Below, one piece after another: positions 12,303 to 23,524 of a DNA stretch of 32,589 nt; the stretch's first letter is position 1; each line of letters opens with the position of its first letter. The notes below the pieces were generated by a model. That model made no database searches and had not been told where the DNA came from. It worked only from the letters and a program-made list of their open reading frames with translations. Source of the DNA: an uncultured bacterium (GTDB lineage: Bacteria > Bacteroidota > Bacteroidia > Bacteroidales > CAIXTV01); assembly GCA_903922465.1 (NCBI GenBank), contig CAIXTV010000249.1:1-32589 (forward strand), given 5' to 3'. The position numbers and the translations under genes are program-made.

Positions 12303-12845
12303 ATGAAAAACTTCAAAATCAGCGTGCTTGCAACATTTGTTTTGCTAATTTTGAGTCAAATGGGCTATGCTCAAAAGACCGAAAAAATTAAATGTAAGTA
12401 TGATGTGAACAAAACCGATGAATTTACTGGAAAAATCATCAAAACTATCAACATTCCCTTGTATTATGGCAATATTGTGATTGCTTTTAGCAAGAGTGAT
12501 GCAGAAATTAAGTTAGCTATGACCATTAAAATTAATGGTAGTAAAGTTGAAAGTTTAAAAACAGGGGAGGAGTTTCAGTTTAAGTTCGAGAATGGTGAAA
12601 TTTTGACCCTCACTTCGGCAAAAGATGCAAGCCCTACGGCCCAGGCCTATGCTACCTCCTATACTGCTGCCATCATTTCCTATTATAACACCGAATATAA
12701 ACTGACTGCTGCCGACTTAAGCAAGCTCGAAAGCATGAAAGTGACCAATATTAAGGTGAATGTGGCGGGCCAACCTTATCAATTTGCAGTTGGTAAATCG
12801 GAATTTCCAAAAATCAATAAGGCTGCCTACTGTATTCAGCAATAA
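12303..12845 (+). CDS. Secreted protein of unknown function
   Basis: I do not recognise a family. The first 23 residues form a clear Sec signal peptide (MKNFKISVLATFVLLILSQMGYA, then QKTEK), so the mature 157-residue protein is exported, probably to the periplasm or surface. The mature part alternates short hydrophobic and polar stretches, as in a beta-rich domain, and has two cysteines (KCKYD near the start and AYCIQQ at the end) that could form a disulfide. No lipobox or membrane segment is present. It stands alone between the DUF1697 gene and the 42-bp repeat array. A hairpin GTTATA/TATAAC (12855-12869) follows the stop but has no T-tract. Confidence 0.8.
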   Translation: MKNFKISVLATFVLLILSQMGYAQKTEKIKCKYDVNKTDEFTGKIIKTINIPLYYGNIVIAFSKSDAEIKLAMTIKINGSKVESLKTGEEFQFKFENGEILTLTSAKDASPTAQAYATSYTAAIISYYNTEYKLTAADLSKLESMKVTNIKVNVAGQPYQFAVGKSEFPKINKAAYCIQQ

Positions 12846-13032
12846 GGTTTTATTGTTATAGCTTATAACTTTAAACCCATAGTTTATCGAAATGTTGAAA
12901 GTAGAACATTAATAGGTGATTTCGCTTTCGAAAATAGAAGCTATTCAATCATAAAAATTATTTTAAACATTATACTAACTACGTTTGAATTTTTAAAGTG
13001 ATAGGGAATTAACAGTAAATTTACAAAAGGCA

Positions 13033-13494
13033 ATTTCACGCGTAAAATCCATCCCGAAAAATTTTAAAGGGTCAATTTCACTCGTGCCAGCCCCATTGGG
13101 AAATTTCCGATTGCATATTTCACGAGTGCTAGCCCCATTGGGAAATTTCCGATTGTATATATCACTCATGCTAGCCCCATTGGGAAATTTCCGATTGCAT
13201 ATTTCACTCATGCTAGTCCCATTGGGAAATTTCCGATTGCATATTTCACTCGTGCTAGCCCCAATCGGAATTTTCCGATTGCATATTTCACGAGTGCTAG
13301 CCCCAATCGGAATTTTCCGATTGCATATTTCACGAGTGCTAGCCCCATTGGGAAATTTACCAACGTATATATCACGCATGAAATCGAAGCTTAAAAAATT
13401 TACAGGATCAATTTCACGCATGAAATCGGTGTCTGAAAATTTCAGATGGTCAATTTTACGCGTGAAATCCTTATTGGAAATTCAGCTTATAGCA
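13033..13494. repeat. 42-bp tandem repeat with internal palindromes (array 2)
   Basis: Seven well-conserved 42-bp units begin at 13075, 13117, 13159, 13201, 13243, 13285 and 13327. Degenerate units keep the same 42-bp register on both sides: 13033-13074 on the left, and 13369, 13411 and 13453 on the right. The conserved units contain a dyad around GGAAATTTCC. In units 13243 and 13285 this becomes a 9-bp perfect hairpin, CAATCGGAA-TT-TTCCGATTG. The flanking units instead carry palindromes such as ATTTCACGCATGAAAT and ATTTTACGCGTGAAAT. Since 42 is a multiple of three, long frames stay open on both strands; I do not regard them as genes. The array lies between convergent genes. Confidence 0.92.
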
Positions 13495-13693
13495 AATTGA
13501 AATGCCTTCCTTCCTTCTTGCCAAAAAACATAAGTAAAAAAGGGGTCGAAATGGCTGTATGTCGTATTTAATATGAAGAAATCAGATGCCGGATATTGCT
13601 TATTTAAGCTTGAGTTGAATAAAAAAGCAATTTCATCTTCAACTTGATTGTAATTTATTTGTAAAACATTCTTACCTAAAGCAAAGGCTTTTC

Positions 13694-14086
13694 TTAGATT
13701 AGATTTTCGATTACTCGTTTAAGTTTTTGTTGAACTTCGGTGGCAATTTCGCCCAACGATTCGTTAGCAACCGACATCATGGAGGCAATTGGATCGACTG
13801 CACTAACCTCTATTTCGCCGTTATCATGTTCTTCAACAATTACGTTGCAGGGCAGAAAAACACCTATCTTATCCTCCTTTTGTAATGATTTGAATGCAAA
13901 ATGTGGATTGCAGGCTCCCAGTATTCTATACTTCTTAAAGTCGGCATCAATCTTCTTTTTAAGCGTTTCTTTCACATCTATTTCGGTTAACACCCCAAAT
14001 CCTTCTTTCGAAAGCTCCTCTTTTACTTGCTCGATAGCCTTTTCAAAGTCTTTTGTCTTTAATATTTTATTGAAATAATATTTCAT
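13694..14086 (-). CDS. DUF302 domain protein
   Basis: A 130-residue protein covering one DUF302 domain. Family features include FEKAIEQVKEELSKEGFGVLTEIDVKETLKKKI, the YRILGACNPHFA segment, and KIGVFLPCNVIVEE followed by VSAVDP. The two cysteines in GACNPH and LPCNV are conserved in many members and might bind a ligand or metal, but the activity is not established. No signal peptide is present, so it is probably cytoplasmic. The ATG at 14086 gives the usual family start. It is transcribed divergently from yfhM and toward array 2. Confidence 0.92.
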   Translation of the reverse strand: MKYYFNKILKTKDFEKAIEQVKEELSKEGFGVLTEIDVKETLKKKIDADFKKYRILGACNPHFAFKSLQKEDKIGVFLPCNVIVEEHDNGEIEVSAVDPIASMMSVANESLGEIATEVQQKLKRVIENLI

Positions 14087-23356: not shown

Positions 23357-23524
23357 GTTAACACAAATTCTCTTAGCGTTAACACAAATTCTATTAGCAT
23401 TAACGCAAGTTTGGTGGGATTGCTCCTAATTTAATTAGCATTGCTCCTAATTGTATTAGGAAAGGTCCTAAGAATGTTAGGACTGCTCCTAAAGACGTTA
23501 GGAAATGCCCTAATTATTGAATTC
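23357..23524. repeat. 21-bp-periodic repeat of two unit types (array 3)
   Basis: Eight consecutive units of 21 bp start at 23357, 23378, 23399, 23420, 23441, 23462, 23483 and 23504. The first three are of the type GTTAACACAAATTCT (with GTTAACGC also seen upstream at 23316). Units four to seven carry TCCTAA-N5-TTAGGA dyads (one arm imperfect in unit four) at 23424, 23445, 23466 and 23487, precisely 21 bases apart. The eighth is degenerate. The five-base dyad centres differ while the arms are kept. No stop-free gene spans the array, so coding pressure does not explain the period. Confidence 0.8.

Follow-up and report, generated by a model that had tools for sequence, protein, structure and literature searches.

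Chimeric dyads in a 42-bp satellite array and reverse-complement symmetry of 21n-bp satellites in a Bacteroidales genome

Satellite arrays with a period of 21 bp or a multiple of it (21n) are the dominant tandem repeats in the sampled genome of an uncultured Bacteroidales bacterium, and their symmetry under reverse complementation is real and unexplained. At one locus, four units with an imperfect dyad carry the left arm of one palindrome type and the right arm of another. Compensation of mismatches unit by unit is not a general rule in these arrays. Among the explanations that we weighed, turnover of the arrays with formation of chimeras comes first, and the cause of the symmetry is left open.

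Two palindrome types and their chimera at one locus

The window, i.e. the whole stretch of DNA that was analysed (32,589 nucleotides), is the entire contig CAIXTV010000249.1 of a Bacteroidota assembly of 5.02 Mb in 312 contigs. Two convergent genes, a short one with no Pfam match (12303-12845, + strand) and a DUF302 gene recognised by Pfam search (13694-14086, - strand), are separated by a non-coding satellite array of 6.8 copies of a 42-mer (13075-13358; TRF and listing of the units). Each copy splits into two dissimilar 21-bp halves, called A and B, and the dyads at their centres lie about 21 bp apart. Diverged older units were recognised by TRF, dyad listing, and alignment on both sides of the array: a 42-bp unit on the left (13031-13071; A dyad CAATTTCACGCGTAAAATCC, B dyad TCCCGAAAAATTTTAAAGGG), and on the right units that include the dyads ATTTCACGCATGAAAT and TCTGAAAATTTCAGA and hold the 21-bp register within about 1 bp (13367-13491). 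The halves differ in how well their dyads pair: B pairs well, while A pairs poorly within the array (3 or 4 pairs) and well in the flanking units (6 to 8 pairs). The aligned A halves (13073-13344) have the spacers CAC-TC-GTG and CAC-GA-GTG, which are mutually reverse complement and are each found with either B type, and CAC-TC-ATG in two units.

The region of the array folds far better than dinucleotide shuffles (z -6.6 and -9.0), which lose the repeat structure. There were no terminator-like sites at 12800-13750, the window had no Rfam match, and a search of viral contigs for the exact dyad of 20 bases gave nothing. A coding origin of the array was considered and rejected: open reading frames (ORFs) run across it on both strands since 42 is a multiple of 3, and the two ORFs in question had no Pfam match.

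In the units at 13075-13242, the B dyad is CATTGGGAAATTTCCGATTG (13094-13113, 13136-13155, 13178-13197, and 13220-13239), with 8 of 10 pairs and the T:T and G:G mismatches that the earlier note had read from the same letters. In the next two units, at 13243 and 13285, the B dyad is palindrome type 2, CAATCGGAATTTTCCGATTG (13262-13281, second copy at 13304-13323; 9 of 10 pairs), that is CAATCGGAA-TT-TTCCGATTG with nine paired bases per arm and an unaltered right arm, again as described in the note. It had further claimed that precisely two left-arm bases are changed in these units, restoring a perfect palindrome. The two changes (T>A and G>C) are there and both mismatches are paired, but a third change, the central A>T, had been missed; the innermost A:T pair is lost, so that the net gain is a single pair, from 8 of 10 to 9. 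The unit at 13327 holds palindrome type 1, CATTGGGAAATTTACCAACG (13346-13365; 8 of 10 pairs). Its left arm is that of the mismatched type, an A and a C in its right arm pair at both mismatch sites, and two further right-arm differences break pairs. The same two mismatches are resolved here from the side opposite to that in units 13243 and 13285. Three random changes among ten left-arm positions would mend both mismatches correctly with a probability of 0.0074, counting the two perfect units as one event since they adjoin and their dyads are identical; this is unusual, but not overwhelming for one event picked from a window that was scanned for oddities.

The locus thus holds at least two palindromic B types with a common centre, type 1 with the left arm CATTGGG and the right arm ACCAACG, and type 2 with the arms CAATCGG and CCGATTG. 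The four mismatched units consist of the left arm of type 1 and the right arm of type 2. The three left-arm bases that differ between units (columns 22, 24, and 29) behave as a block, co-segregating in 7 of 7 units, and their history conflicts with that of a neighbouring marker: together with the A-spacer columns 8 and 9, they display all four combinations. Since the four combinations occur within one 42-mer, there was either exchange or recurrent change inside it, and the co-segregation of the block together with this conflict makes exchange between units the simplest account. Of the 42 positions, units 13117 and 13327 agree at each of the first 32, and units 13075 and 13243 at each of the last 13.

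One exchange suffices for a chimera. Compensation would take two changes at just the right sites plus a third that reduces the symmetry, and this third change, at the central base, is accounted for by the chimera but not by compensation. Misaligned units may have exchanged sequence by unequal crossing-over, slippage, or short-tract conversion. The switch point would lie in the TTT that both types have in common, immediately to the right of the dyad centre, and the chimeric unit would then have been amplified. In that case, the perfect units need not descend from mismatched ones by repair. This direction of change and this mechanism are what we infer from the units of an array whose polarity is unrooted, as it has no relative in the genomes searched. 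Types 1 and 2 differ by two swapped pairs (T:A to A:T and G:C to C:G), which counts against the chimera, because one must assume either an older paired divergence or an independent origin of the two palindromes. The alternative raised in the earlier note, gene conversion between arms, survives in part: exchange is supported, but it is between units, and copying from arm to arm leaves the central base unexplained.

Covariation of the arms within the array is nominal. The locus has 11 B dyads, 7 of them distinct. In these, 68.3% of the cells are paired, compared with 59.5% after shuffling, and 6 of 500 shuffles reach the observed share; 21 of 500 reach the covariation score and 16 of 500 the number of cells changed on both sides, with the caveat that related rows can exceed shuffles without any structure. 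The same dyads give no signal in the pairs changed on both sides (101/500) or in further pair types (215/500), and covariation is absent from the A dyads of this array (380/500 shuffles). An earlier max-against-max arm test, in which the A and B axes were pooled, gave p 0.005 for this array.

The earlier note had suggested collecting copies of the 42-bp family in the genome and its relatives. The search of the family in its own genome returned the array itself as sole match. Among 59 genomes of the same order searched with a 1951-base query, 7 had any match, and none of these fell inside the array. One protein of the window is presumably FtsK-like; the best 80 of at least 567 loci with its relatives are all from Bacteroidota, the closest listed (63% identity) being from an uncultured Bacteroidales bacterium.

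Reverse-complement symmetry of the 21n arrays

We sampled 140 stretches of the genome that amount, with the window, to 1.84 Mb (1.80 Mb without N), or about 37% of the 5.02 Mb. The contigs were taken in numerical order, the long ones in part. The sample contains 134 TRF rows of period 21 (score at least 60), 60 of period 42, 24 of period 63, and 17 of period 84, while the next commonest periods, 16 and 24, account for 12 rows each. One period and its multiples therefore dominate the tandem repeats of the sampled genome. Rows were merged, and arrays shorter than 63 bp or holding N were excluded, leaving 100 arrays (23,080 bp) in a census from which TRF misses very diverged arrays. In other genomes, the best 80 of the at least 567 loci with FtsK-like relatives (1.47 Mb) yield, at the same score, 15 rows with a period of 21 and 3 with a period of 42, too few for the symmetry test described below.

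Most arrays are unrelated in sequence: 75 of the 100 match no other, and 13 sharing pairs (E<=1e-5) involve 25 arrays. The flanks were compared in 9 of the 13 pairs, and in several of them the similarity extends no more than tens of bases beyond the arrays. One 42-bp family is present at L058 14632-14935 and L201 8456-8981 (handles starting with L denote sampled stretches), with 78-87% identity over long alignments that stop within tens of bases of the array, and it looks as though the array spread and its flanks did not. Another pair, in L224, sits in a longer inverted duplication. According to simple ORF-based gene calls, which are crude (83% coding), 93 arrays are intergenic, 5 coding, and 2 partly coding. 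The intergenic arrays are flanked by tandem genes in 34 cases, by convergent genes in 15, and by divergent genes in 14, to be compared with 122370, 35201, and 50217 intergenic bases, respectively; this comparison of counts with intergenic length gives no clear preference of orientation. The other 30 of the 93 lack a called gene on one side within the sampled stretch. Some are at contig ends (e.g. L041, L063, L069, L203, and L214), and hence the assembly may break at arrays and the true arrays may be longer.

To quantify symmetry, the base profile of each array was compared with its own reverse complement in all rotations, against permutations of the columns. The resulting p-values keep the composition but not neighbour effects, for which natural intergenic windows are the control. 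The profile is symmetric at p<0.01 in 17 of the 100 arrays and at p<0.05 in 32, versus 1.0% (21 bp) and 3.3% (42 bp) of the natural intergenic windows at p<0.01 (400 windows each). Arrays of other periods, of which the consensus was tested, gave 0/70 at p<0.01 and 4/70 at p<0.05. The first 0.74 Mb, where the dyads were first noticed, has 7 of 38 arrays at p<0.01. Later fetches have 10 of 62 at p<0.01 and 20 of 62 at p<0.05, or 10 and 18 of 51 once coding arrays are removed and one array is kept per sharing pair; this later set was not blind, as part of it had been listed before the symmetry test was written.

Symmetry is strongest in the 42-bp arrays (10/32 at p<0.01), and mid-p values give 8/68 for the 21-bp arrays and 10/32 for the 42-bp ones. 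The control of mirror symmetry gave 1/68 and 0/32 at p<0.01, with a combined p of 0.0054 in the 21-bp arrays, and complement-only similarity gave 1/68 and 1/32. The weaker axis is significant by itself in 14 of the 32 42-bp arrays, the choice of the axis being partly selected. Stems of at least 6 bp number 93 in 63 arrays versus 23.7 after column permutation, and they are twice as dense in arrays (6.9 per kb) as outside (3.4 per kb). A column-permutation dyad test on the first 0.74 Mb (11/40 arrays at p<0.05) was superseded by the profile test.

A few arrays are worth describing separately. About 950 bp of diverged 21-bp units in L101 (4760-5717) have a symmetry p of 0.0005, and coupling within units is absent (p 0.30 and 0.45). 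In L002 (4-332) and L052 (8453-8727), different palindromes occur at about one register within an array: CTAATA..TATTAG and CTTAAC..GTTAAG, and ACGGGGGAAA-C-TTTCCCCCGT beside ACGGTT..AACCGT. These arrays are good-looking candidates for symmetry without sequence. L002 172-332 has a coupling p of 0.010 (max-against-max) and a profile symmetry p of 0.099; L052 8453-8624 has a profile symmetry p of 0.033 and no coupling in a within-against-between arm test. The window has a third array of nine 21-bp units (TCGATATGCCGCA..., 2259-2447), with ORFs across both strands and a symmetry that is not significant (p 0.11, column-permutation test).

Coupling of the arms within units

The earlier note suggested that symmetry, not the exact sequence, is being kept, and stated that an absence of covariation above background among many copies would refute this. 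We took the axis of each array from its profile and permuted the right arms as blocks among distinct dyads. The sample comprises 344 dyads in 45 blocks with at least 3 distinct dyads, from the 32 arrays at p<0.05; smaller sets were excluded. Pairing is 4.83 of 10 within units versus 4.79 between units (z 0.77, p 0.23), and the coupling z ranges from -0.15 to 0.58 in other settings and in all 100 arrays. We estimate that 2.8% of the broken consensus pairs are compensated, with an upper 95% limit of 10.6%; a simulated compensation of 10% was detected in 93% of trials. When the axis was slid to twelve other positions, z ranged from -2.66 to 0.51, and the true axis lies above all of them. Taking the slid-axis mean as baseline raises the compensated share to about 7% and its upper limit to about 15%, by an arithmetic estimate. 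As the true axis is the highest, weak coupling is possible, and we weighted the reading by selection slightly up and our best explanation slightly down. Compensating double changes number 42 versus 36.4 expected, other double changes 47 versus 45.2, and the compensating ones at nine slid axes combined 147 versus 156.5.

Single blocks vary both ways, with a z of 3.3 in the array at 23357 and of -2.1 in L080. The former (23357-23513) is the second dyad-bearing 21-bp array of the window, with TCCTAA...TTAGGA stems and varying loops, and its coupling (7 distinct dyads) is the highest among the blocks of symmetric arrays. The max-against-max arm test is weak, with a combined p of 0.036 to 0.14 over five settings. 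Two other approaches were set aside. A within-against-between test with the axis chosen by cross-unit pairing is biased against 42-bp arrays (mean difference -0.036; 28 positive and 50 negative of 80). Pooling the two kinds of axis gives a z of 4.34, which largely reflects the fact that the A palindrome differs from the B palindrome and is no sign of compensation. Compensation unit by unit thus fails as a general rule by the covariation that the note itself had named. What stands of its claim is the enrichment of reverse-complement symmetry across 100 mostly unrelated arrays; covariation of the arms is negative genome-wide and nominal at this locus.

Known repeats, competing explanations, and meaning

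Plasmid iterons are tandem repeats of about two helical turns and are thus alike in repeat length, but the arrays described here are mostly unrelated in sequence. Closer relatives are the constant-length satellites of 20-21 nt, which are already known. The available part of PMC8161180 describes bacterial repeats of constant length (20-21 nt) and variable sequence, notes that they span two helix turns, proposes nucleoid binding or small RNAs for them, and reports RNA folding of 52-nt repeats. Its table includes Bacillus simplex, muralis, and weihaiensis among the genomes with abundant 21-nt repeats. Like the 20-21/22 nt repeats of Subirana and Messeguer, as described in the available parts of PMC8161180 and PMC6749651, our arrays are non-coding and have a fixed period near two helical turns. 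As in the former paper, many families of unrelated sequence coexist in a genome, double-length forms occur, and a function is not established. The marks of constant-length satellites, i.e. a dominant period, array-specific sequences, and an intergenic location, are all found in our genome. Unlike in these parts of the two papers, the period here is 21 and its multiples and the symmetry is enriched. The terms palindrom and symmetr have 0 occurrences in the main text of PMC8161180, palindrom occurs twice in the part of PMC6749651 at hand, both times on CRISPR, and the accessible part of PMC13155455 holds nothing on such arrays. The literature searched contains no report of array symmetry; the search did not extend to the survey cited as reference 3 of PMC8161180.

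Other families of repeats share some traits with the arrays. BrickBuilt, a 23-nt minisatellite/MITE of Porphyromonas gingivalis, is likewise an intergenic satellite of short period in Bacteroidales, and the accessible part of PMC4596501 reports predicted long stem-loops and transcription at some loci. It is, from the same part of that paper, a single dispersed family with a leader, a tail, terminal inverted repeats, and a period of 23, whereas the array of the window matches only itself and most of the others match none. The extragenic palindromes of REP type are also short, intergenic, and palindromic, but in what is accessible of PMC3733652 they form large families with conserved end tags, unlike these tandem and mostly unrelated arrays in a 21-bp register.

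Our preferred explanation, held tentatively and at nearly even confidence, is that exchange between misaligned units made the chimera, and that the class consists of turnover-driven satellites with symmetric founders or survivors, the arms of which decay nearly independently. A symmetric consensus with nearly uncoupled arms is what one expects if symmetry belongs to the founders. These founders or survivors might be favoured for their dyad symmetry, e.g. if single-stranded DNA forms hairpins that make slippage by one unit more likely, and the near-independent decay would follow the founding. The data argue against such hairpin-promoted expansion in two respects. Symmetric arrays have a median of 10.7 units (n=32) versus 9.3 (n=41), with identities of 0.82 versus 0.83, and so small a difference in length argues against expansion being much favoured by symmetry. 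Hairpins would also be expected to make arrays of other periods symmetric, yet none of the 70 is at p<0.01. Small 21n arrays (at most 6 units) are symmetric at p<0.01 in 4 of 20 cases. In symmetric arrays (n=31), conservation is slightly higher in paired columns than in unpaired columns (by 0.040 on average, p 0.016), which hints at constraint, in a comparison biased by the choice of arrays.

Some observations at the locus resemble template switching (quasipalindrome correction), by which one arm is copied from the other in replication and both mismatches are mended together. The accessible parts of PMC8604942, PMC7202029, and PMC3820800 describe homogenisation of arms and inversion of spacers, similar to the differences in our B arms and A spacers: the two mended bases are a copy of the right arm and change together, the spacers CAC-TC-GTG and CAC-GA-GTG are exact inversions, the other signature named in PMC8604942, and reverse complements are the commonest of the three kinds counted among 168 two-base differences (22, versus 17 complement-only and 11 reverse-only). 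But a copied arm would be CAATCGGAAA and the centre is T, so that an extra change is needed (2 of the 3 changed bases fit the reverse complement of the other arm), and for the dyad at 13346, copying the opposite way fails to account for two bases. Over all lengths, the 980 clustered differences of the genome have no clear excess of inversions (30 reverse-complement, 23 reverse-only, and 21 complement-only), and spacer inversions in the accessible part of PMC8604942 occur only with arms longer than 9 bp, when the A arms here have 3 bp. We regard template switching as rather unlikely. Selection for a hairpin or cruciform in each unit, of DNA or RNA, would make the changes true compensations. It could draw on the nominal covariation of the 7 distinct B dyads in pairing and covariation score, on the max-against-max p of 0.005 in this array and 0.002 in that at 23357, on the high coupling of the latter, on the position of the true axis above the slid ones, and on the folding of the array region, although the shuffles lose the repeats. 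It is nevertheless quite improbable given how few breaks can be compensated in the 32 arrays (at most 10.6%, or about 15% on the slid-axis baseline), the 42 compensating double changes where 36.4 are expected, the weak combined p of the five earlier settings, and the lack of an Rfam match in the window and of a terminator-like site at 12800-13750.

The dyads might instead be paired half-sites for a putative dimeric DNA-binding protein, e.g. a nucleoid protein, bound every two helical turns, and Subirana and Messeguer do suggest, in the accessible part of PMC8161180, a protein polymerising on constant-length repeats. Symmetric half-sites predict a symmetric consensus without coupling inside the units, much as we see: there is little or no such coupling, the reverse-complement symmetry of 21n arrays exceeds that of arrays with other periods and that of intergenic windows, and 42-bp arrays hold two different dyads 21 bp apart, with the weaker one significant in 14/32. 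A symmetric consensus with near-independent decay of the arms is expected of dimer half-sites as it is of founders picked for symmetry. On the other hand, with 75 of the 100 arrays matching no other, no single sequence-specific protein fits, and 68 of the 100 miss p<0.05 for symmetry, which makes this explanation unlikely. We thus return to turnover with formation of chimeras, of which the locus offers a lesson: what looks like a neat case of compensation may, when it stands alone, be a chimera. The negative covariation speaks against a hairpin in each unit as the general explanation.

A broader possibility, to which we give a small though appreciable chance, is that the 21/42-bp satellites of this lineage, or constant-length ones generally, are trains of dyads spaced two helical turns apart, in which something that reads two-fold symmetry or shape sets both the 21-bp period and the symmetry. 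If so, the symmetry of the arrays, and not their sequence, would be kept, and the reader would be a dimeric packing protein or a copying process that depends on hairpins. Dyad symmetry is a second property that the arrays have in common, and it offers a handle on the question of why some bacteria have many arrays of a single period that are unrelated in sequence. The enriched symmetry argues against explanations based on length only and can be tested in any genome rich in satellites.
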